Shown piece after piece: positions 181 to 10,146 of a stretch of 10,146 nt of DNA; the stretch's first letter is position 1; each line of letters starts with the position of its first letter. Both the position numbers and the translations under genes were made by a program. A model generated the notes under the pieces. That model was not told the origin of the DNA. It did not search any database and saw only the letters and a list, made by a program, of their open reading frames with translations. The DNA comes from Rhodospirillaceae bacterium (GTDB taxonomy: Bacteria > Pseudomonadota > Alphaproteobacteria > JABSOH01): NCBI GenBank assembly GCA_020629355.1, contig JAHDDM010000026.1, positions 1-10,146 on the forward strand. Direction: 5' to 3'.

Positions 181-525
181 CTAACGTTTTGCCAGTGCAG
201 CACTAGCGGTTTCAATCGCCGCTAAAACACCGCGCAGAGCCTCAACATTCACTGTAGAGGCAACCGATGCGCCGCTTTGTGTCGCTATAGGGGCTGGTGC
301 ACCCGCAAGCCGTTTTCGGGCAGTGCTAATATCCAGACCGTCATCATGCAGCAGCTTCTGTACTGCACGGATAGAATCGATGGTTTCCACGGTGTAGGCA
401 CGGCGACCATTTCGGCTACGTACTGGTTCGATGGTTGGAAACTGGCTTTCCCACATCCGTAAAACATGCTGTGGCAATTCCAGCATATTGGCCACTTCGG
501 TGATGGAATAAGACTCTTCGGTCAT
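181..525 (-). CDS. small MerR-family DNA-binding protein downstream of ihfA
   Basis: This 114-residue protein is predicted to be a DNA-binding regulator. Residues about 5-75 match the MerR winged-helix domain: SITEVANMLELPQHVLRMWE is the helix-turn-helix start, GRRAYTVETIDSIRAVQKLL the wing and following helix, and GLDISTARKRL the end of the domain. The remaining 40 or so residues are Ala/Ser-rich with no recognisable effector domain and no cysteine pattern for metal or redox sensing, so it differs from classic effector-binding MerR proteins, which carry a long dimerisation helix. It starts 30 bases after the ihfA stop with only a weak Shine-Dalgarno, so it is probably cotranscribed with ihfA. 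MerR-like genes next to ihfA are common in Alphaproteobacteria; their targets are, to my knowledge, not established. Family assignment is firm, role unknown. Confidence 0.88.
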   Translation of the reverse strand: MTEESYSITEVANMLELPQHVLRMWESQFPTIEPVRSRNGRRAYTVETIDSIRAVQKLLHDDGLDISTARKRLAGAPAPIATQSGASVASTVNVEALRGVLAAIETASAALAKR

Positions 526-555
526 GGCAGTCGGCTCAAGTAAAACTCAGGAAAT

Positions 556-873
556 TTATTGATCTTCTGGACGAATCGGCATGGCCGCAATATTTTTGCG
601 CATCTTTGCCGAAGGTGCAAAAGAAATTGAACGGCGCGGCTGGATCATTACCTCCTCGCCAGTTTTCGGATTGCGTCCGATTCGCGCAGCTTTTTGACGG
701 ACTTTGAAATTGGCAAACGAGCTGATCTTGACCTCGCCACCAGAGACCAGTTCGTCTGCAATTTCCTGGAGAACATTATCCACAAGGCTAGACATGGTCT
801 GTTGTGCATGACCAACACGGGCTTGCAATGCACGGGCAAGATCAGCACGGGATAAGGTGGGGAATTTTGACAT
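556..873 (-). CDS. ihfA: integration host factor subunit alpha
   Basis: This 105-residue protein belongs to the HU/IHF family of DNA-bending proteins. IHF-alpha pairs with IHF-beta to form a heterodimer that bends DNA sharply in recombination, replication and promoter architecture. The visible hallmarks are LSRADLARAL at residues 7-16, VKISSFANFKVRQK at about 48-61, and the family signature IGRNPKTGEEVMIQPRRSISF at about 65-85, which includes the DNA-inserting beta arm with its conserved Pro (NP). Length is slightly above the usual 95-100 because of a short C-terminal tail. The start is supported by AGGAG 8 bases upstream and by the promoter at 914-941. The alpha rather than beta call rests on overall resemblance and on the following merR gene. 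Confidence 0.93.
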   Translation of the reverse strand: MSKFPTLSRADLARALQARVGHAQQTMSSLVDNVLQEIADELVSGGEVKISSFANFKVRQKAARIGRNPKTGEEVMIQPRRSISFAPSAKMRKNIAAMPIRPEDQ

Positions 874-956: not shown

Positions 957-2249
957 TTAATGTGCAATTCCATAAGATGGATTATGTCGGCGATGAGTGT
1001 CTTTGGGGCGGTTCTTCAGACTAAGTTGACTGTTATTGCGCGCTTTCTGTGCAATGACCTTGCCTTTCGAGACCACGCAAAGGCGGTCTGGTCTTAGTCT
1101 GATGGCCTCGATAGGGTTGCCCGCATCCAGCACGACAACTGAAGCTGTTGCGCCGACCTTGAGGCCATAGTCCGAAAGGTTCAGGATTTTGGCGTTATCT
1201 TCGGTGATCATCGTGAAACAGCGCTGCATCTCTTCAGGGTGGGTCATTTGTGCGACATGCAGCCCCATGAAGGCGACATCCAGCATATCGGCTGTGCCTA
1301 GTGAATACCACGGATCAAGGGTACAGTCCTGTCCCCAGCCTACTGTAATGCCATGGCTTTGCATTTCCTTGACTCTGGTCAGGCCACGGCGTTTGGGGAA
1401 GGTATCGTGGCGGCCTTGCAGCGTGATATTGATGAGCGGATTCGGGATTGCGGCCAGTTCTGCTTCTGCCATGAGCGGCAGAAGTTTCGAGACATAATAG
1501 TTATCCATGGAATGCATCGAGGTCAAATGGCTACCAGCCGCGCGGCCTTGTAGTCCGCAACGAATGGTTTCTGCTGCAAGGGTCTCGACATGCCTTGAGT
1601 GCGGGTCATCGGTTTCATCACAATGCAGATCAATCATCAGACCGCGATTCGCCGCAATTTCGCACAACTCCCGTACTGAAGCCGTGCCGTCTACCATGGT
1701 GCGCTCGAAATGCGGAATGCCGCCGACAATATCAATGCCCATATCCAGTGCGCGCAGAGTATTCGCCTTAGCTTTGGGATCACGATAGAAACCATCCTGA
1801 GGAAACGCCACCAGCTGCAAGTCGATATAGTCTTTGACCTGTTCACGAAGTTCTAGCATAGCCTGTGCACCCAGTAATCTGTCGTCACAGACATCAACAT
1901 GGCTACGAATTGCCAGCAGACCCATTGAAGCTGCCCAGTCACAATATTTTAGACCGCGTTCAATCATGTCTTCGATGGTGACGATTTGTTTTAATTCGCC
2001 CCAAAGCGCAATCCCTTCCAGCAATGTACCAGAGCCGTTAATGCGCGGTATGCCATAGCTTAAGGTCGCATCCATGTGAAAATGCGGGTCAACAAAGGGC
2101 GGCGAGACAAGATCACCAGTGGCATCAATTATTGTTGTGGCGGCAACGCCATTCAGAGATTCTATCGCGGCAATACGATCCCCAACAATACCAATATCGT
2201 TGATTGTGCCATTGGGCAGAGTCCCGCCCTTGATAATGAGGTCAAACAT
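957..2249 (-). CDS. CodA-family cytosine deaminase, predicted 5-methylcytosine deaminase
   Basis: This 430-residue amidohydrolase hydrolyses the exocyclic amine of a pyrimidine base in the cytoplasm. All key E. coli CodA residues (positions from memory) align at a constant offset of five: metal ligands H56 and H58 (PHFHMD), H209 with catalytic E212 (HCDET), H241 and D308, base-binding Q151 (AFPQDG), and W314 (DPW). The exception is decisive: GQDCTLDPW has Cys309 where CodA has Asp314, and Gln307 where CodA has His. CodA homologues lacking that Asp have been shown to deaminate 5-methylcytosine to thymine, which CodA itself does not do. The ATG shares one base with the permease stop (TAATG) and has a strong GGGGGA site upstream. 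The last 28 or so residues are a basic tail. The family is firm; the substrate is inferred. Isoguanine or another cyclic amidine remains possible. Confidence 0.88.
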   Translation of the reverse strand: MFDLIIKGGTLPNGTINDIGIVGDRIAAIESLNGVAATTIIDATGDLVSPPFVDPHFHMDATLSYGIPRINGSGTLLEGIALWGELKQIVTIEDMIERGLKYCDWAASMGLLAIRSHVDVCDDRLLGAQAMLELREQVKDYIDLQLVAFPQDGFYRDPKAKANTLRALDMGIDIVGGIPHFERTMVDGTASVRELCEIAANRGLMIDLHCDETDDPHSRHVETLAAETIRCGLQGRAAGSHLTSMHSMDNYYVSKLLPLMAEAELAAIPNPLINITLQGRHDTFPKRRGLTRVKEMQSHGITVGWGQDCTLDPWYSLGTADMLDVAFMGLHVAQMTHPEEMQRCFTMITEDNAKILNLSDYGLKVGATASVVVLDAGNPIEAIRLRPDRLCVVSKGKVIAQKARNNSQLSLKNRPKDTHRRHNPSYGIAH

Positions 2250-3196
2250 TAGCGTTCCCCCTTACGAAACGGGATCATCAGAGCCGCAGGAATTTCAGCA
2301 CGGCGCGACATGATAATCAAGGCTAAAATCGACAGAACATACGGCATCATCAAAAAGACCTGATAGGGAATGTCGCTGCCGATAGAGGTCTGTTGCAGGC
2401 GAATTTGAAAGGCGTCGAAGGCAGCGTATAACAGCGCACCTAGCACAGCTTTGCCTGGCTGCCATGCCCCGAAGACCACCAGAGCAATGCAAATCCAGCC
2501 GCGTCCGTTGACCATTTCAAATAAGAAGGTGTCAAAGGCTGAAAGGGTCAAAAATGACCCGCCCACCGCCATGAAGCCAGAACCTACCATTACCGCACCC
2601 ATACGCAATCCCGTGACGGATAATCCTTGTGCATCGGCGGCGGCAGGGTTTTCGCCAACACTACGCACCGCAAGACCAAGCGGAGTACGATACAGGACAA
2701 TAGCGACAATAATTGCCAGAAGAAAAGCCCCGTAAGTCATGGCGGTTTGATGAAATAGAGCCTCGCCAATCAGGGGAATATCGGACAGTATGGGAATTTC
2801 AATGGGCTGAAATGGCTCGATTTTCGGAGGCGAGGGGACTTTCGGCAAAATCAGGCGATAGGTGAAATAGCTGCTTGAGGTGGCCAGTAGAGTAACCCCC
2901 AAGCCCACCACATGTTGCGAGAGTCCGAACGGTACGGTTAAGGTAGCGTGTATGAGTCCGAATAGCATCCCCGCGCACATGGCGACAGAGACTCCGAACC
3001 AGAGCGGTGCACCTTGATAGACCGCCATCCAGCCAGCGAATGCACCCACCACCATGATGCCTTCGATCCCAAGGTTGAGTACACCAGCGCGCTCGCAAAT
3101 AATCTCGCCAATGGTGGCAAAAATCAAGGGCGAGGCAATCCGCACCGCCGCTGCCCAGAAACTGGCCGAGAGTAAAATGTCGAAAATCTCCATCAT
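2249..3196 (-). CDS. ABC transporter permease, second subunit (BMP-dependent nucleoside/base type)
   Basis: This 315-residue integral membrane protein belongs to the branched-chain amino acid/ribose permease superfamily, in the branch that works with BMP-type binding proteins (YufQ/NupQ-like). Visible family motifs are NLGIEGIMVVGA at residues 41-52, the cytoplasmic coupling segment VGENPAAADAQG at 180-191, and GWICIALVVFGAWQP at 233-247. Hydrophobic segments run through most of its length, suggesting 8-10 membrane spans. It is the shorter of the two permeases and would form the heterodimeric channel with the upstream gene. Its ATG overlaps the previous stop (ATGA), and its stop TAA shares a base with the deaminase ATG, implying translational coupling. 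A second ATG directly follows the first; either could be used. Confidence 0.92.
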   Translation of the reverse strand: MMEIFDILLSASFWAAAVRIASPLIFATIGEIICERAGVLNLGIEGIMVVGAFAGWMAVYQGAPLWFGVSVAMCAGMLFGLIHATLTVPFGLSQHVVGLGVTLLATSSSYFTYRLILPKVPSPPKIEPFQPIEIPILSDIPLIGEALFHQTAMTYGAFLLAIIVAIVLYRTPLGLAVRSVGENPAAADAQGLSVTGLRMGAVMVGSGFMAVGGSFLTLSAFDTFLFEMVNGRGWICIALVVFGAWQPGKAVLGALLYAAFDAFQIRLQQTSIGSDIPYQVFLMMPYVLSILALIIMSRRAEIPAALMIPFRKGER

Positions 3197-4245
3197 CCGC
3201 GTACCAGCCTTACTCGCGTCAAAAGAATTGCCAAGACCATAAACAATAAAGCAATCGCCAGCAGCATATCGGCGATATAGGTTGGGACATCGGCCGCGCG
3301 GCTCATGCTGTCCGCGCCAACGAAGATTCCGGCAACAAATATTGCTGAGATAACCACGCCCAAGGGATGCAATAATGCCAACATGGCGACAATAATGCCT
3401 GTATAGCCAAAGCCTGGACTGAGATCGAGGCTGAGGTGGCCTTTCAGCCCTGCAACTTCCGAATAGCCTGCCAGAGCCGCGAGACCACCAGAGAGCAAGG
3501 CGGTTTTGACCAGCACCATATTCACTGGAATCCCTGCAAATTTTGCCGCCGCAGGATTATGACCCACAGCGCGAATTTCGTAACCTAATGTTGTTCTGGT
3601 CTGAATAATCCAGACAACCATTGCCGCAATCAGCCCCAAGGCAAAGCCCCAATGTAGTCGTAGTCCCGTGACGATACGTGGCAATCGGGCCTCGTTTGCC
3701 AACCGTTCAGATTTCGGCCAGCCCATGCCCATGGGGTCTTTCATCGGGCCTTCCACCAGATAGGAGACAAACAGCAGCATAATGAAATTGAGCAGAAGGG
3801 TAGTGACGACTTCATCGACCCCGAAGCGGGTTTTCAGGATAACCGGACCAAGCAAAATCATTGCGCCTGTCAAGGCCGCCGCCACAGCCATCAGCAACAG
3901 ATGGGGAATGCTTGGCAAGGCTGCCAATGCGGATGTGCCAATGACTACCGTCAGTATTGCCCCGCCGTACAGTTGTGCTTCTGCACCGATATTCCATAAT
4001 TTTGCTCGAAAGGCCACCGCGACCGCAAGGCCAGTAAAGATGAGCGGCGTTGCGCGATTCAAGGTCTCAAGCAAGGCAAACTTACTGCCTGCCGCGCCCT
4101 TGATGATGAGGCCAAGAGTCGCAAAAGGGTTCGCACCAGCCGCTAACACCAATAAAGAGCCAATGATAATGGTTGCAGCTAATGCCGCAGCAGGCAGGGC
4201 AATTTTTCGTGCCAGCGAGGGATTGTCAATCGGTTCAAGCCGCAC
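3193..4245 (-). CDS. ABC transporter permease, first subunit (BMP-dependent nucleoside/base type)
   Basis: This is the longer permease (YufP/NupP-like), 350 residues from the GTG at 4245. Motifs of the family are FRAKLWNIGAEAQ at residues 79-91, VDEVVTTLLLNFI at 143-155, the ATPase-coupling segment VGHNPAAAKFAGI at 227-239, and GFGYTGIIVAMLA at 278-290. The open frame extends back to an ATG at 4386, but that extension lies inside the ATPase gene and encodes a polar stretch unlike a permease. The GTG has GGGGAGGA 5 bases upstream and is followed by MRLEPIDNPSLARK and then the first membrane helix. The gene overlaps the end of the ATPase by 11 bases and the next permease by 4. It would form half of the import channel. 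Confidence 0.92.
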   Translation of the reverse strand: MRLEPIDNPSLARKIALPAAALAATIIIGSLLVLAAGANPFATLGLIIKGAAGSKFALLETLNRATPLIFTGLAVAVAFRAKLWNIGAEAQLYGGAILTVVIGTSALAALPSIPHLLLMAVAAALTGAMILLGPVILKTRFGVDEVVTTLLLNFIMLLFVSYLVEGPMKDPMGMGWPKSERLANEARLPRIVTGLRLHWGFALGLIAAMVVWIIQTRTTLGYEIRAVGHNPAAAKFAGIPVNMVLVKTALLSGGLAALAGYSEVAGLKGHLSLDLSPGFGYTGIIVAMLALLHPLGVVISAIFVAGIFVGADSMSRAADVPTYIADMLLAIALLFMVLAILLTRVRLVRG

Positions 4246-5770
4246 AGTTGTCCTCCCCCTCAAATCCTTGTCCTGCCATCCACAGGCCAAGTTCGGCGGG
4301 TGTTTTTGTGCCACGTGGAAATTCTGGTGATAACTTGCCTTCGGAAATGACATGAATGACATCAGATAGCCTGAGAATCTCGTCAAGGTCTTCAGAGATC
4401 AGCAAAATTGCCGCCCCTGAAGCTCGTGCAGCCAATAATTGATTATGGACATAGGTAATCGCGCCAATATCCAAGCCGCGTACAGGCTGGTTCGCCAGAA
4501 TAATCTTCGGATTGCCCTCAAGCACCCGCCCAAGGATGAGCTTTTGCATATTACCACCAGAAAGCAGGCGGATTTTGGTGGACGCACCGGGGCAGCGGAC
4601 ATCATAGGTTGCGATAATCGACTCCGTGAACGCCTTGGCTTGCGACCAGTTCATCCAGCCGCGCTTGCTCATGGGTGGTTTCTGATAGGTCTCAAGAATC
4701 GCATTTTCGCTCAAGTCGAAATCAGCAATAGTGCCTGTGTGGTGGCGGTCTTCAGGAATACGCGCAATGCCGCTTTGAACGGCATCCCGAGGATTCCAGC
4801 GATTTTGTACTGTTTCGTCTAACACCAGCTGCCCCTGTTCTGGCAAGCCTAATCCGCAAATCAAATCCGACAGGGCGGCTTGACCGTTGCCAGAAACGCC
4901 TGCAAGTCCTGTAATTTGCCCTGCTTTCAAAGACAGGCTTACATCTTGCAGGCCAGGTGCAGTGCCCATATCTGGAGTCGACACATGCCGTAATTCCAAT
5001 AGAGTCGCACCCACCTGTATCGGCGCAACTTCTGGCGGCTCGACCTTGTTGCCGACCATCATTTCCGCCAAGGCTTCGCGGCTAGTATTTTTGGTCTCGA
5101 CTTCACCGACCAATGCCCCATGACGCAAGACCAGACAACGATCCGCAATCGCCATGACCTCGTGCAATTTATGGCTGATGAATACAATGGATAGCCCCAT
5201 AGCCACGGCCTTATGTAAGGTCTCGAACAGGGCATCGGTTTCTTGTGGCGTTAAAACAGCAGTAGGCTCATCCAGGATTAAAATCCGTGCGTCACGGTAC
5301 AGGGCTTTCAGAATCTCCACCCGTTGCTTTTCGCCCACCGTTAAATTTCCGACCTTGGCATCGACATCAACCAATAGGCCAAAGTCTTCTGCAAGCTGCC
5401 GAATACGCTTTTTTGATTGTCCTAGTCGCAATCTGCCAGACCAGAGCGAACTTGTCCCCAAGCTGATATTTTCCGCAACAGTCAAATTTTCTGCCAGGGT
5501 AAAATGTTGATGCACCATGCCAATGCCCGCCTCAAGAGCCGCCCGTGGGTTTCCTTGTGGCAAAGGTGCACCAAAAGCCTCGACGGTTCCCGCATCTGCA
5601 ACATAATGCCCGAACAGAATGTTCATCAAAGTCGTTTTTCCAGCACCATTTTCCCCCAACAGGGCAATGACTTCACCCTTATGCAAGGTCAAGTCAATAC
5701 CACTGTTGGCGACAAGATCACCGAAGGTCTTGGTGATACCAGCTAAACGTAAAACAACTTCTAAGGTCAC
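4235..5770 (-). CDS. ABC transporter ATPase with two nucleotide-binding domains (BMP-dependent nucleoside/base importer)
   Basis: This 511-residue cytoplasmic protein powers the importer. Domain 1 is complete: Walker A GENGAGKT at residues 39-46, Q-loop Gln88 (MVHQHF), signature LTVGEKQ at 143-149, Walker B LILDE at 164-168, and switch His200. Domain 2 (about 258-500) has a degenerate Walker A, GVSGNGQ at 291-297 without the Lys, a good signature LLSGGNMQ at 402-409, and ILANQP where Walker B would end in Glu. That asymmetry is typical of sugar and BMP-dependent nucleoside ATPases, so it is not decay. The GTG start overlaps the stop of the binding protein gene (GTGA), and no clear Shine-Dalgarno precedes it, suggesting translational coupling. 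NupO/YufO-like proteins are the closest match I recognise. Confidence 0.93.
   Translation of the reverse strand: MTLEVVLRLAGITKTFGDLVANSGIDLTLHKGEVIALLGENGAGKTTLMNILFGHYVADAGTVEAFGAPLPQGNPRAALEAGIGMVHQHFTLAENLTVAENISLGTSSLWSGRLRLGQSKKRIRQLAEDFGLLVDVDAKVGNLTVGEKQRVEILKALYRDARILILDEPTAVLTPQETDALFETLHKAVAMGLSIVFISHKLHEVMAIADRCLVLRHGALVGEVETKNTSREALAEMMVGNKVEPPEVAPIQVGATLLELRHVSTPDMGTAPGLQDVSLSLKAGQITGLAGVSGNGQAALSDLICGLGLPEQGQLVLDETVQNRWNPRDAVQSGIARIPEDRHHTGTIADFDLSENAILETYQKPPMSKRGWMNWSQAKAFTESIIATYDVRCPGASTKIRLLSGGNMQKLILGRVLEGNPKIILANQPVRGLDIGAITYVHNQLLAARASGAAILLISEDLDEILRLSDVIHVISEGKLSPEFPRGTKTPAELGLWMAGQGFEGEDNCAA
4251..4258 (-). promoter_or_regulatory. strong ribosome binding site that fixes a GTG start for the first permease
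   Basis: The minus strand reads GGGGAGGACAACTGTG: a near-ideal Shine-Dalgarno 5 bases before the GTG at 4245-4243. It lies inside the last codons of the ATPase (Gly-Glu-Asp-Asn-Cys). It argues against the ATG at 4386 as start, and for independent, strong initiation of the permease. Confidence 0.75.
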
Positions 5771-6774
5771 GCCGATTTTGGCTCGTTGTCGTTAATTTCG
5801 ACAGTGAAGCTGCCATTTTTAATCGCGGCCTGACGTTTGGCCACCAGATCAAGAGCCGCTTGAGGCACTTTACCCTCAAATGTGCCTAATGGCGCAAGCG
5901 AGCAACCGCCATGCTTCATAAAGGAATAAACCCCGTAATTTTCGGCAGTGAAGTTACCCGCTGCAACCTTGGCAATCGCGGCCTGTAGGGTTGGTTCAAA
6001 GTGCCACAGAGCCGAAGCCACTACAGTGTTTGGATAATCCGCTTGGGTGTCAATGACATTGCCAATCGCCAGCAGGCCTTTTTCCTGTGCGGCATCTGAG
6101 ACACCAAAACGTTCCGCATAGAGCATATCTGCGCCATTTTCGATCATGGCAAAGGCGGTCTCTTTGGCTTTCGGTGGATCATACCAGGAACCAATGAAGC
6201 TTACCTGGAATTTTGTCTCTGGCTTCATTTCACGTGCACCCGCCATGAATGCATGCATTAAGCGGTTGACCTCTGGAATTGGGAATCCACCGACCATGCC
6301 AATATTGCCATGCGACATGGCACCAGCAATAATGCCCGAAAGATAGCTTGCATCTTGAATGTAATTGTCAAAAACGGAAAGATTCGGCAAAGCTGCATCA
6401 GGCATAAACGAAGAGCCCATCAGGAAAGCAACGTCTGGATAGTCTGCAATGACCTCACGAGCTTCTTGTTCTGCACCAAAAATCTCGCCAACGATTAACT
6501 GAACACCGCTTTCGGCATATTCCCGCATCACGCGCGGATAATCCGTGTTCGAGATGCTTTCGGCATGCCTGTATTCAATCTGTCCTGCGGCATTTGCTGC
6601 AACAGCAGCATTATGAATTCGGCTGATCCATTGCTGTTCCACTGGCAGAGTGAAAATCCCTGCGGTTTTAATCGGACTGCTCGCTAAAGCAAAATTCGGG
6701 ATAAGGCTGGTGGCTGCAAGGGTGGCTGCGCTACCAACCATAAGGTCACGCCGTGATAGATGAGGTAATGTCAT
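5767..6774 (-). CDS. BMP-family periplasmic substrate-binding protein with Tat signal
   Basis: This 335-residue protein is the extracytoplasmic receptor of the importer. BMP (PnrA/Med-like) proteins bind nucleosides or related bases. Family features include LIVGEIFGAEQEAREV at about 93-108, FDNYIQDASYLSGIIAGAMS at about 135-154, GGFPIPEVNR at about 162-171, and GSWYDPPKAKETA at about 195-207. The N-terminus SRRDLMVGS followed by an Ala-rich hydrophobic stretch is a twin-arginine signal, with probable cleavage after A31 (FALA/SS). There is no lipobox Cys, unlike many BMP lipoproteins. The start is firm: AAGGAG lies 6 bases before the ATG. It is the first gene of the operon, behind the promoter at 6830-6858. 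The exact ligand cannot be read from sequence. Confidence 0.92.
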   Translation of the reverse strand: MTLPHLSRRDLMVGSAATLAATSLIPNFALASSPIKTAGIFTLPVEQQWISRIHNAAVAANAAGQIEYRHAESISNTDYPRVMREYAESGVQLIVGEIFGAEQEAREVIADYPDVAFLMGSSFMPDAALPNLSVFDNYIQDASYLSGIIAGAMSHGNIGMVGGFPIPEVNRLMHAFMAGAREMKPETKFQVSFIGSWYDPPKAKETAFAMIENGADMLYAERFGVSDAAQEKGLLAIGNVIDTQADYPNTVVASALWHFEPTLQAAIAKVAAGNFTAENYGVYSFMKHGGCSLAPLGTFEGKVPQAALDLVAKRQAAIKNGSFTVEINDNEPKSA

Positions 6775-6969: not shown

Positions 6970-7491
6970 ATGCAGACACAAAAACTCTCGCGGACGAGCG
7001 TGGTCTTACATTGGGTTGTTGCGATAATGATACTGATGCTGCTTGGTTCAGGTATCTATATGCACGAATTTGAAGCGCGTGATGTTTATCCCATCCACAA
7101 GTCTTTTGGTATCACCATTACCCTGTTTGTGGTTGTTCGGATACTCTGGCGCTTGAAAGAGGGCTGGCCTACGCCCGATTCTTCTCATGCTCCGTGGGAG
7201 CGGATATTATCGCGCATTAGCCACTATGTCTTGATTGCAGGCACATTGTTCATGCCTGTTTCTGGTATGATCGGCAGTGTTGCAGGAGGGCGCGGCCTAT
7301 ATTGGTTCGGAGTTGAGCTCATTGCTCGAGACCCAGCAGGTAAAAACAAAATGTTGGCTGAGGCCGCGCATGATGCGCATGAAATGCTGGCAAAGATTAT
7401 TATTCTGTTTTTGATTTTGCATATTGCAGGCGCGTTGAAGCATCACTTTATCGACAAGGACAATACCTTGCGGCGGATATTCAGAGGTTAG
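6970..7491 (+). CDS. cytochrome b561 family membrane protein
   Basis: This 173-residue, four-helix membrane protein is of the CybB/YceJ type, which carries two b hemes and passes electrons between quinol or superoxide and a partner. Candidate heme ligands are H14 (VLHW), H43 (PIHKSFG), H137 (HDAHEML) and H151 (LILHIAGALKHH), placed as in E. coli CybB (His13, 45, 137 and 151 as I recall them). The length of about 175 residues is normal. AGGAG stands 7 bases before the ATG. The cytochrome c gene begins 8 bases after its stop, making a b-type cytochrome to periplasmic c-type cytochrome electron route plausible. The electron donor is unknown. Confidence 0.9.
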   Translation: MQTQKLSRTSVVLHWVVAIMILMLLGSGIYMHEFEARDVYPIHKSFGITITLFVVVRILWRLKEGWPTPDSSHAPWERILSRISHYVLIAGTLFMPVSGMIGSVAGGRGLYWFGVELIARDPAGKNKMLAEAAHDAHEMLAKIIILFLILHIAGALKHHFIDKDNTLRRIFRG

Positions 7492-7499
7492 GTGATTTT

Positions 7500-7937
7500 A
7501 TGGCTCTGCCCCAAAAGGCCTATATTGCGGCTGTTATCGGTATCCTGCTGTTAATCTCTGGTACTGTCTTTTGGTGGTATCAGGCATCAACGCCAGCAAA
7601 TGAGGCAGGATTCGGGGCGGCTATGGTACAGGTAAAATTACCAGAGGAATTGTCTGCATTGGCCAAACGTGGTGAAGGGCTTTTTCATCAAAACTGTGCT
7701 TCTTGCCACGGAATCAATGGCGCGGGTCAGGACGGTGTGGCACCACCGCTTATTCACAGAATCTACGAACCCAGTCATCACAGTGACCTATCTTTTCAGC
7801 GTGCAATGACTTTAGGTGTGCGCGCGCATCATTGGCCTTTTGGCAATATGCCTCCTGTAGCAGGGCTGTCTCAAGCTGATACAGTACCTATTATTGCCTA
7901 TATTCGTACAATTCAGCGCAAAAATGGTATTGATTAG
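7500..7937 (+). CDS. membrane-anchored class I c-type cytochrome, His-rich
   Basis: This 145-residue protein has an N-terminal hydrophobic segment at residues 8-26 that is probably an uncleaved anchor, then a periplasmic monoheme domain. Heme attaches at C66-A-S-C69-H70 within NCASCHGINGAGQDGVAPPL, and the distal ligand is probably M117 in GNMPPV. Between them are five further histidines: H86, H93, H94, H110 and H111. Those near FQRAMTLGVRAHHWPFGNM lie close to the heme Met loop and could bind metal. The gene begins 8 bases after the b561 stop with a weak GGTGA site, so the pair is probably cotranscribed. It likely accepts electrons from the b561 protein. The domain is firm; the physiological partner is inferred. 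Confidence 0.9.
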   Translation: MALPQKAYIAAVIGILLLISGTVFWWYQASTPANEAGFGAAMVQVKLPEELSALAKRGEGLFHQNCASCHGINGAGQDGVAPPLIHRIYEPSHHSDLSFQRAMTLGVRAHHWPFGNMPPVAGLSQADTVPIIAYIRTIQRKNGID

Positions 7938-7962
7938 AGTTCCATAAAGAATATTTCTGTTC

Positions 7963-7968
7963 TATAGT
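7963..7968 (+). promoter_or_regulatory. possible -10 element upstream of copC
   Basis: TATAGT in the 74-base gap between the cytochrome c and copC genes matches the -10 consensus at 5 of 6 positions, 44 bases before the copC ATG. No acceptable -35 box stands 16-18 bases upstream (TTCCAT at 17), so an activator-dependent or absent promoter are both possible. I see no CueR/CopY-like operator. Confidence 0.25.
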
Positions 7969-8011
7969 CAGCCATCTTAAACAGTGAAACGAAGACAATT
8001 CGGAGAAGACC

Positions 8012-8356
8012 ATGCGATACATATTTGCTTTGATCGGCTTAATAATCTGTACCGAGGGGGCTTGGGCGCACTCTAAAATCAACAAGACCATGCCTGCTGA
8101 TGGTGCGATTCTGAAACAGTCTCCTCAGGATATCGCATTTCATTTCGATAAAACTATCAGGATCACGCGGATTGTTCTGTCGCACGAAAGCAGCAACGCG
8201 GTTGGATTGGATTACTTGGACGGTTATGAAGACTATAATAATCGTTTCAAGCTGCCTATTGTCTCTATGGGAAATGGTGCGTATCAAGTGCAGTGGCGTG
8301 GGATCAGTCAGGATGGTCATGTCATGCAGGGTGATCTCCGCTTTGCTGTAGAGTAG
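8012..8356 (+). CDS. copC: CopC-family periplasmic copper-binding protein
   Basis: This 114-residue protein has a signal peptide (residues 1-19, ending GAWA) followed by mature HSKINKTMPADGAIL, the classic CopC opening. The mature N-terminal His (H20), together with D101 and H103 in DGHVMQGDLRFAV, reproduces the Cu(II) site of CopC proteins (N-terminal His plus a DxH motif). The Met-rich Cu(I) loop of Pseudomonas CopC is absent, so a Cu(II)-only form is likely. The domain is a small beta-barrel; the mature length of about 95 is close to family norm. GGAGAAG lies 3 bases before the ATG. The stop is 5 bases before copD, as expected for proteins that hand copper to the CopD membrane partner. Confidence 0.9.
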   Translation: MRYIFALIGLIICTEGAWAHSKINKTMPADGAILKQSPQDIAFHFDKTIRITRIVLSHESSNAVGLDYLDGYEDYNNRFKLPIVSMGNGAYQVQWRGISQDGHVMQGDLRFAVE

Positions 8357-8361
8357 CCTTG

Positions 8362-9231
8362 ATGGATATTTGGATCTTCGGGTCTGTTCTGTCAAAGTTC
8401 GGACTCTATGTTGGGGTTCTGTTTGCGGTAGGGACTGTTTTTTATCAATACGCCTTTGAAACAGAAAGCGCGGCAAAAGCTCTGCCGATGCGTAACTTTG
8501 CCTTGGGGATGATTGCCCTTGGTTTGTGTGCGGCTATACTCAGTTATGGAATACGGGCAGCGAGCCTGACGGGCAATATTGCCGCGATATTTGATCCTAG
8601 AGTACTAAAGATTCTGTGGACAACGCCAGTGGGGACTGTACTGGTTTTGCGTGTTATCGGCCTGGCCTGTCTTGTTGCGGGGCAATTTTTGAAACCATAC
8701 GCCACTGGCCTGGGAATTTTAGGCGGTCTGATCACGCTTGCTTCCTTTACACAGATTGGACACGTCACCAATTTCACAGGGATATATGTCCCGATATTGT
8801 TGTTGGCGCATCTTCTGTGTCTTTCGCTGTGGTTGGGGATTCTGTTGCCACTGTACCGTTTGAGTGTTGATACAGAATATATCGCTACGGTTGCCAAAAT
8901 TGGCCGTCACTTTGGGCAATTTGCAGTACTCTTTGTTCCGATTGTGATCATTGCGGGTACGGGACTCGGATATTTTCTGTTAGGCTCGTGGTATAACATC
9001 GTGACCACAGCCTATGGTCAAGTTCTTGTTTTGAAAGTTTTTCTTGTCATGTTATTGCTCGTTTTGGCTGCTGTGAATAAATGGCATCTTGTCCCCAAGA
9101 TTGTCACAGGCGACTGTTCTGCACTCAGACATTTCCGCTATTCTGTGCTGTTGGAAATACTGATTGTTTTAGGTGTGCTGCTGGCTACAACCTTTTTAAC
9201 CAGCCTGCTTGATTTGCCACTGCCGATGTGA
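8362..9231 (+). CDS. copD: CopD-family inner-membrane protein, putative copper importer
   Basis: This 289-residue polytopic protein has about eight membrane helices. CopD-domain features are H134 in QIGHVTNF, H150 in LLLAHLLCLSLWLGILLPL, the segment FVPIVIIAGTGLGYFL (191-206), YGQVLVLKVFLVM (218-230) and a final helix LEILIVLGVLLATTFLTS. CopC-CopD pairs are generally taken to move copper from periplasm to cytoplasm. A TTG one codon earlier keeps the frame open, but the ATG at 8362 is the natural start. No strong ribosome binding site is visible, and the start is 5 bases after the copC stop, so translation is probably coupled. Transport direction and metal are inferred from the family. Confidence 0.87.
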   Translation: MDIWIFGSVLSKFGLYVGVLFAVGTVFYQYAFETESAAKALPMRNFALGMIALGLCAAILSYGIRAASLTGNIAAIFDPRVLKILWTTPVGTVLVLRVIGLACLVAGQFLKPYATGLGILGGLITLASFTQIGHVTNFTGIYVPILLLAHLLCLSLWLGILLPLYRLSVDTEYIATVAKIGRHFGQFAVLFVPIVIIAGTGLGYFLLGSWYNIVTTAYGQVLVLKVFLVMLLLVLAAVNKWHLVPKIVTGDCSALRHFRYSVLLEILIVLGVLLATTFLTSLLDLPLPM

Positions 9232-9284: not shown

Positions 9285-10146
9285 TCAAGCCCGTAACCTT
9301 TCGCCTTTGGGGTCAAAGGGAGGCTCTGCAAGGATGACACCTTGATGGGGTTGACCAAGTACAGCGACAAGAACCTCTTGTCCTGCTTGGGCATATTCGG
9401 TTTTGATCATGGCCAGAGCAAGAGACTTTTCGACAGTATAGCCGTAGCCGCCTGAAGTCACTCGACCAATCGGCGTGCCATCGGTGAGGAAAATCGGTTC
9501 GCTACCACTGGCATCAGCATTATTATTGGCGGTGACCTCGATGGTCACCAGAAGCTCGCGTGGCGAGGTGTCTGCAAGGCCAAGATAGGCTTCTTTGCCG
9601 AGGAAATCGCCTTTGTCTGCCTTGATCAGGCGGTCAAGCCCGACCTCGTGCGGCCAGTATTCTGGACTGTATTCGCGAGACCACGAACCATAGCCTTTTT
9701 CAAGCCGCAAAGACAAGAGCGCGCGTGAACCCACAGGGCGAGCATCAAGGTCTTTTCCTGCATTCAAGAGGGCTTCGTACAGTTTTTCCTGGTCTTCGCT
9801 GGCGACATATATCTCCCAACCGAGGTCTCCAGTAAAGGAAACCCGAAGGGCAATGGCTTCCAGTCCTGCAATGGTGAGTTGCCTTGAGCGCATGAAAGGA
9901 AAGCTTGCGGTGCTGAGGTCTGCTTGTGTCAAGCGGCTAAGTAATTCACGCGCGTTTGGTCCTGCAACGTTAAAGCCGCAATAGTCATGGGTGCGCGAGG
10001 TAAATTCCACCGAGTCTGGTTTGGCCACAGCGTTGAAGAATCGCTTATGGTAGCGTTCTGCCATGCCAGAGCCAATCATAAAGAAATGATCCTCGTCAAG
10101 CTTGGTGAGTGTAAAATCACCCGCCACCCCGCCACGCTCACCGATC
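9285..10146 (-). CDS. C-terminal GcvT-like part of a dimethylglycine/sarcosine dehydrogenase-type enzyme, cut at the right edge
   Basis: The open frame enters from the right edge (IGERGGVAGDFTLTK from 10145) and ends at 9285, giving about 286 residues. The GTG at 10127 is an internal Val, not a start. It matches the folate-binding aminomethyltransferase fold: RGGVAGDFTLTKL, YCGFNVAGPNARELLSRLT, SFTGDLGWEIYV, the segment ARPVGSRALLSLRLEKGYGSW, KGDFLGKEAYLGL, and TPIGRVTSGGYGYTVEKSLALAMI. In dimethylglycine and sarcosine dehydrogenases this domain follows an FAD domain and transfers the released one-carbon unit to tetrahydrofolate. The Glu-Lys-Gly-Tyr-Gly segment and long C-terminal beta domain favour this group over plain glycine-cleavage GcvT. 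The FAD domain would lie outside the window. It converges on copD and has no visible link to the other genes. Confidence 0.82.
   Translation of the reverse strand, partial: IGERGGVAGDFTLTKLDEDHFFMIGSGMAERYHKRFFNAVAKPDSVEFTSRTHDYCGFNVAGPNARELLSRLTQADLSTASFPFMRSRQLTIAGLEAIALRVSFTGDLGWEIYVASEDQEKLYEALLNAGKDLDARPVGSRALLSLRLEKGYGSWSREYSPEYWPHEVGLDRLIKADKGDFLGKEAYLGLADTSPRELLVTIEVTANNNADASGSEPIFLTDGTPIGRVTSGGYGYTVEKSLALAMIKTEYAQAGQEVLVAVLGQPHQGVILAEPPFDPKGERLRA

Follow-up and report, generated by a model that had tools for sequence, protein, structure and literature searches.

Cytosine deaminase of E. coli (CodA, PDB 1k6w) carries an aspartate at position 314 and a histidine at position 312, and is encoded with the permease CodB. 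PDB entries 4r7w, 4r85 and 4r88, named 'cytosine deaminase' in the PDB, are presumably the Klebsiella 5-methylcytosine deaminase Kpn00632. The other two 5-methylcytosine deaminases in Hitchcock's 2014 work are said to be Rsp0341 and NCgl0075. We take the latter, which lacks the aspartate, to be the codA gene of C. glutamicum. According to those parts of PMC6186785 that report Hitchcock (2014), the Klebsiella enzyme has serine at the Asp314 position and is a 5-methylcytosine deaminase, and E. coli CodA gains activity on 5-methylcytosine when alanine replaces this aspartate. In excerpts of PMC1578569 and PMC8864220, C. glutamicum codA (cg0104) is called a creatinine deaminase. Hence, the natural substrate cannot be read off from the absence of this aspartate. 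Free 5-methylcytosine has to be recycled; to our knowledge, no bacterial route for its uptake has been described.

Here, we analysed 10,146 nucleotides of alphaproteobacterial DNA (the window), which make up one whole contig of an assembly of 1.25 Mb that is 65% complete. A CodA-like deaminase of 430 amino acids is encoded on the minus strand at positions 957-2249, and the gene is present in single copy in the assembly. It is the last gene of an operon of five minus-strand genes that run in the same direction with overlapping ends. The first encodes a BMP/PnrA-type substrate-binding protein (5767-6774; PF02608) with a twin-arginine-like signal, for which the best PDB match is AtzT (6pi5). This is followed by a double-domain ABC ATPase (4235-5770; PF00005 in two stretches) and by two permeases of the BPD_transp_2 family. 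Permease 1 (3193-4245; PF02653) most likely starts with the GTG at 4245, which is preceded by a purine-rich stretch; its gene overlaps that of the ATPase by 11 bases, matching Paracoccus. The stop of permease 2 (2249-3196) shares 1 base with the start of the deaminase gene, and the two genes adjoin in most related loci. The window therefore holds a complete BMP/PnrA ABC nucleoside importer set: a PF02608 binding protein, two PF02653 permeases and a double ATPase.

Genes for an IHF-alpha-like protein and a short MerR-type regulator lie downstream of the operon (181-873, minus strand). On the other side are divergent plus-strand genes for cytochrome b561-like, cytochrome c-like, CopC and CopD proteins (6970-9231). 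Neither group had a relative in any of the 137 loci that we compared. The contig ends within a minus-strand gene for a GcvT-domain protein related to sarcosine oxidase, GcvT and TMAO demethylase, of which only the C-terminal part is present (9285-10145).

The window deaminase passed the cut-off of model NF005748 (PRK07572), which describes a cytosine deaminase subfamily (743.8 bits, cut-off 438). Conversely, it fell below that of NF006685 (PRK09230), the E. coli-type CodA model (409 bits, cut-off 483). Its best relatives in the PDB were, in order, E. coli CodA (E about 1e-100), 4r7w and N-isopropylammelide amidohydrolases of the AtzC type. E. coli CodA and the window enzyme are 41.3% identical and have all catalytic residues in common, so that the set H-x-H, Q, H, E, H, D, W is complete. 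We built a MAFFT alignment of 240 sequences, made up of the window protein, 119 listed homologues, 116 locus proteins and four Asp- or Ser-type references. In this alignment H56, H58, Q151, H209, E212, H241, D308 and W314 pair with the catalytic and base-binding residues of CodA. All eight were invariant in the 236 family rows, a count from which the duplicate loci L116-L135 and L001 had been removed, with redundancy otherwise unfiltered. The offset between the two proteins is five in the usual numbering and six if the initiator methionine is counted, as it is in the relevant part of PMC6186785, where the residue is hence Asp315. A first-pass annotation of this DNA had recognised a CodA homologue with its full metal- and base-binding set at a constant offset of five, and this was borne out.

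The motif GQDCTLDPW (residues 306-314; 1308-1334, minus strand) includes the metal ligand D308 and W314, the equivalent of Trp319. By phmmer it lay opposite GHDDVFDPW of E. coli CodA without a gap, and the MAFFT alignment agreed. Thus, as the first-pass annotation had read them, Cys309 takes the place of Asp314 and Gln307 that of His312. The cysteine codon is at 1323-1325 and reads TGT on the minus strand. Judged by column 314, the window deaminase lacks the aspartate in the manner of Kpn00632 and Rsp0341, and departs from the E. coli type. It also differs from E. coli CodA in being encoded with an ABC importer.

Cys309 is neither a read error nor a chance event, since GQDC was found in all of the best 120 closest proteins listed, the window's own among them. 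The same motif occurred in 80 of 80 named loci, which constitute the window's own branch. Column 314 of the 236 family rows contained cysteine 233 times, serine three times (L011, L024 and L030) and aspartate never; column 312 contained glutamine in 211 rows, histidine in 22 and serine, asparagine and alanine in one each. Cysteine at 314 is therefore the mark of a whole clade. The first-pass annotation, which had described a CodA homologue with Asp314 replaced by cysteine, was right about the residue, but the word 'replaced' suggests a feature private to the window protein.

We also surveyed 398 genomes from across the phylum, of which 88 had a CodA-like protein at an E value of 1e-90 or better. 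We examined 81 of these proteins; the other seven, including that of the window's genome, were already in the data set. Position 314 was cysteine in 40, aspartate in 21 and serine in 20. Cysteine or serine is thus the majority state in this Pseudomonadota sample (60/81). Because aspartate is the minority state (21/81), its absence is no mark of an unusual enzyme and, alone, is unfit for annotating 5-methylcytosine deaminases. All 21 proteins with Asp314 had histidine at 312. Those with serine at 314 had glutamine (17) or glutamate (3) at 312, and those with cysteine had histidine (22), glutamine (17) or methionine (1). A quick tree of 109 proteins, built by maximum likelihood and rooted at the midpoint, placed the window enzyme within a clade of 60 (57 Cys and 3 Ser; SH-aLRT 100). 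A separate clade of 45 (support 97) united the Asp-type proteins with the main Ser type. The root is arbitrary, and gain and loss of the aspartate are hence indistinguishable. Among 11 more distant matches, five retain the six catalytic residues that we checked, with motifs GHDS (2), GQDC (2) and GQDN (1); the remainder have lost catalytic residues or the motif, and two of these carry aspartate at the 314 place. The window enzyme is a regular alphaproteobacterial member of a known deaminase branch.

We next compared the window enzyme with 5-methylcytosine deaminases. The motif of 4r7w, viewed through an Enterobacter plasmid protein for which 4r7w is the best PDB match, is FAQDSIQDPW. The first-pass annotation had proposed inspecting column 314 against E. 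coli CodA and the Klebsiella enzyme; with 4r7w represented by this close plasmid-borne relative, the window residue was cysteine and not aspartate. The catalytic set, glutamine in the His312 column and the lack of Asp at 314 are common to 4r7w and the window enzyme, whereas the residue at 314 is serine in the former and cysteine in the latter. L136, a close relative of 4r7w, is 40% identical to the window enzyme and falls in the tree clade that contains E. coli CodA, apart from the window's clade. Its locus has a codB gene nearby, and the 7 kb covered there showed no ABC importer. A closer match is P0087, from 'Rhodobacter sp. AKP1', which is 76.9% identical to the window enzyme over 424 columns. 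Both proteins have GQDC, continuing as GQDCVLDP in P0087 and GQDCTLDP in the window. Going by the organism name, P0087 is perhaps the R. sphaeroides 5-methylcytosine deaminase Rsp0341. AKP1 is listed in the taxonomy as a species of its own, and no row named sphaeroides was among the best 120 matches in a search with P0087.

The importer offers a second view of the substrate. The PDB matches of the binding protein were AtzT (E 2e-30) and then the Brucella protein 3s99, solved with adenine. AtzT, the closest solved binding protein, binds nucleobases, which is a point in favour of base salvage. The affinities given in PMC6834077 are 0.11 μM for guanine, 2.5 μM for adenine, 620 μM for thymine and 800 μM for cytosine. 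We took the AtzT pocket residues from the same paper and mapped them by phmmer alignment. AtzT and 3s99 are BMP-type nucleobase-binding proteins of the same family as the window protein. Glu165 and Trp194 are retained as E168 and W197. Conversely, Ser97, Asn169, Asn218 and Asn220 are replaced by I98, L172, E221 and F223, and Tyr45 lands one position away from W49. The partial retention of the pocket, and the very weak binding of cytosine and thymine by AtzT, count against salvage of these bases. Because four pocket side chains have changed, a ligand differing from that of AtzT is expected.

The predicted pocket of the window protein comprises W49, F99, E168, W197 and E221. In 74 other binding proteins from related loci, including a second, unlinked one of L139, these residues were conserved in 73 (W49), 70 (F99), 73 (E168), 69 (W197) and 73 (E221) cases. 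Binding proteins from the pyrimidine-linked loci L117, L121 and L137 match the window at all five positions and at F223. Two other pyrimidine-linked proteins deviate, L130 with phenylalanine for W197 and L158 with alanine for F223. By analogy with AtzT, a distant template, the importer ligand is probably a flat base other than guanine, one that the window and most pyrimidine-linked operons likely have in common. Import of guanine as by AtzT was rejected on account of the four replacements. The putative vitamin B6 importer was also considered and rejected, as scores against NF047927-NF047930 were all far short of the cut-offs (72/400, 208/465, 185/400 and 430/670 bits).

An extra amidase gene lies by the binding-protein gene in some operons of rhizobial and related type (L032:7063-8475, L033:7053-8465, L280 and L282); the amidase of L032 belongs to PF01425. 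Several pocket positions in the L032 and L033 binding proteins differ from those in the window, and these operons may hence serve another substrate.

We then turned to gene neighbourhoods of related deaminases. Neighbouring genes were chosen by a bias-based gene picker; all-against-all clustering of ORFs was dropped, since antisense ORFs dominated. Of 94 listed loci, 14 were omitted from the neighbour lists because the picker missed their deaminase; Pfam scans covered the 25 commonest families per set, and absences in them are limited accordingly. The full set of four importer genes was found with the deaminase in 52 of the 80 named loci, in 20 of 30 class-sample regions, in 7 of 20 phylum-sample regions and all seven of a hand-picked set of Cys-type plasmid loci. 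The gene order varies in a few loci (L138, L139 and L280). We detected no importer gene beside the deaminase in 25 of the 80, some of which lie close to the end of a contig; this counts against the salvage function that we favour below. A targeted literature search, with most subscription journals outside its coverage, found no paper on the importer-deaminase operon. The enzyme branch was already known; its linkage to the importer is new here. The recurrent operon provides a testable route for uptake of 5-methylcytosine.

To find genes for uracil breakdown or salvage we searched for PreA, PreT, URC1, URC4 and Upp (tblastn, E 1e-8). Such genes lay near wider-clade deaminases in 6 of 30 class-sample and 5 of 20 phylum-sample regions (11/50). 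The same search found none in 39 control regions, each 18-19 kb long and taken from other parts of the genomes in both searches; a 40th (L301, 3 kb) was dropped because it lay inside test region L158. Three of the six class-sample regions are from one genus (L116-L118), the L267 match is a partial PreT at the region edge, and Upp stands alone in L266, L272 and L273. Against the PreA equivalog model, which has a cut-off of 335, the PreA proteins of L121 and L158 reached about 711. In L271 the importer and deaminase genes come directly after URC1-URC4-upp and a RutR-like gene. The Azospirillum plasmid locus L137, one of the seven, has the order GTP cyclohydrolase II (taken as URC1), URC4, upp, importer, deaminase, without RutR; this locus supplied the URC and Upp queries and was excluded from the counts. 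In L117, a PRK09290-type amidohydrolase of the carbamoylase family immediately follows the deaminase. In L118 and L117 the importer is preceded by ORFs of 568 and 583 amino acids, respectively, which proved to encode sensor kinases and not dihydropyrimidinases. The rut genes were left out of all counts, because matches to rutC, rutD and rutF in L063 proved to be a Rid protein, an alpha/beta hydrolase and a CoA-transferase/flavin-reductase ORF, with no match to rutA, and because weak rutB or rutC matches occurred in 4 of 20 controls.

Pyrimidine-gene linkage is a feature of the wider clade that the window's own branch does not share. Within the stretches covered, preA, preT, URC and upp were found in none of the 80 named GQDC loci, and in one of them a RutR-like gene lies at a distance of about 9 kb; this counts against the salvage function that we favour below. 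Upp converts uracil to UMP and does not use thymine. Hence, the deaminase at upp-linked loci should act on cytosine, and these loci argue for cytosine over 5-methylcytosine as the natural substrate there. The window genome itself has upp, on another contig. In the same 65%-complete genome there was no match to preA, in a search run without a control genome, which is a further point against our favoured reading; nor was there one to DUF1688 (URC4), which also gave no match in any control.

Taken together, we favour a cytosine-type nucleobase salvage operon, with a deaminase pocket that accepts 5-methyl- and 5-fluorocytosine besides cytosine; from the data above we infer the substrate, the tolerance at C5 and the importer ligand. 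The BMP-type ABC importer would take up a pyrimidine base, and the metal-dependent CodA-like deaminase would then hydrolyse its exocyclic amine, releasing ammonia and uracil from cytosine or ammonia and thymine from 5-methylcytosine. The pocket should take 5-methyl- and 5-fluorocytosine because cysteine replaces the aspartate that excludes 5-methylcytosine in E. coli CodA. Judged from sequence, the window deaminase likely accepts 5-substituted cytosines, and it is likelier still that it is a cytosine-type pyrimidine base deaminase with its own importer; 5-methylcytosine is a plausible extra substrate beside cytosine. The first-pass prediction of a 5-methylcytosine deaminase was thus reasonable as to the acceptance of 5-substituted cytosines. 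That 5-methylcytosine is the real substrate does not follow, because relatives in the wider clade have uracil genes as neighbours (uracil phosphoribosyltransferase, URC genes and dihydropyrimidine dehydrogenase) and because some CodA proteins deaminate creatinine.

One rival explanation is a strict cytosine deaminase, in which cysteine would fill the space as aspartate does and 5-methylcytosine would be rejected. The upp and URC neighbours in relatives, which indicate a uracil product, agree with this, but the Ala mutant of E. coli CodA and the Ser-bearing Klebsiella enzyme, as described in the quoted parts of PMC6186785, speak against it, and we consider it highly improbable. A dedicated 5-methylcytosine deaminase, with cytosine a minor substrate and the operon recycling methylated bases from the DNA or RNA of other organisms, would explain the Gln307 common to the window and 4r7w, the lack of Asp in both, and the absence of uracil-gene linkage from the GQDC branch. 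No match to the C5-cytosine methyltransferase family was found in the 65%-complete window genome (10 of 14 control genomes were positive), and any 5-methylcytosine would therefore be external. However, cysteine or serine is the family majority, also where upp and URC point to uracil, and cytosine and 5-methylcytosine cannot be separated by sequence alone; we regard this explanation as unlikely. Its extension to the whole GQDC branch, as a dedicated uptake and salvage operon for 5-methylcytosine or 5-substituted cytosines in Rhodobacterales and rhizobia, split from mostly GHDC, uracil-feeding relatives, seems to us distinctly unlikely.

The name given to C. glutamicum codA in the two excerpts raises the further prospect of a creatinine deaminase, forming N-methylhydantoin. 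Of 117 loci, 27 encode a GcvT-domain protein near the deaminase, compared with none of 20 controls, and the window itself ends in a GcvT-like fragment; however, 16 of the 27 loci are from one genus, Mesorhizobium. Similarly, HyuA-HyuB lies just upstream of the importer-deaminase operon in L079 (Frigidibacter sp. RF13; L079:1540-5245), a member of the window's branch, but this is the only one of 117 loci with HyuB near the deaminase, and none of 20 phylum regions has it. Of 21 genomes or records searched, 17 had PF02538 (HyuB), which was not near the deaminase in the three genomes with comparable positions (G154, G217 and G041). It was not found in the window's own 65%-complete genome, and no N-methylhydantoinase (HyuA/HyuB) was found among the window ORFs scanned. 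Creatinine is also at odds with the presence of uracil genes in 11 of the 50 regions, and we consider this substrate very unlikely; cytosine-type salvage remains our preferred reading. The GcvT proteins that we checked, in L074 and L106, are full-length FAD+GcvT proteins. Finally, one alphaproteobacterium has two adjacent CodA-like genes (L144:7985-10415), one encoding GHDS and the other GQDC with phenylalanine for Trp319.
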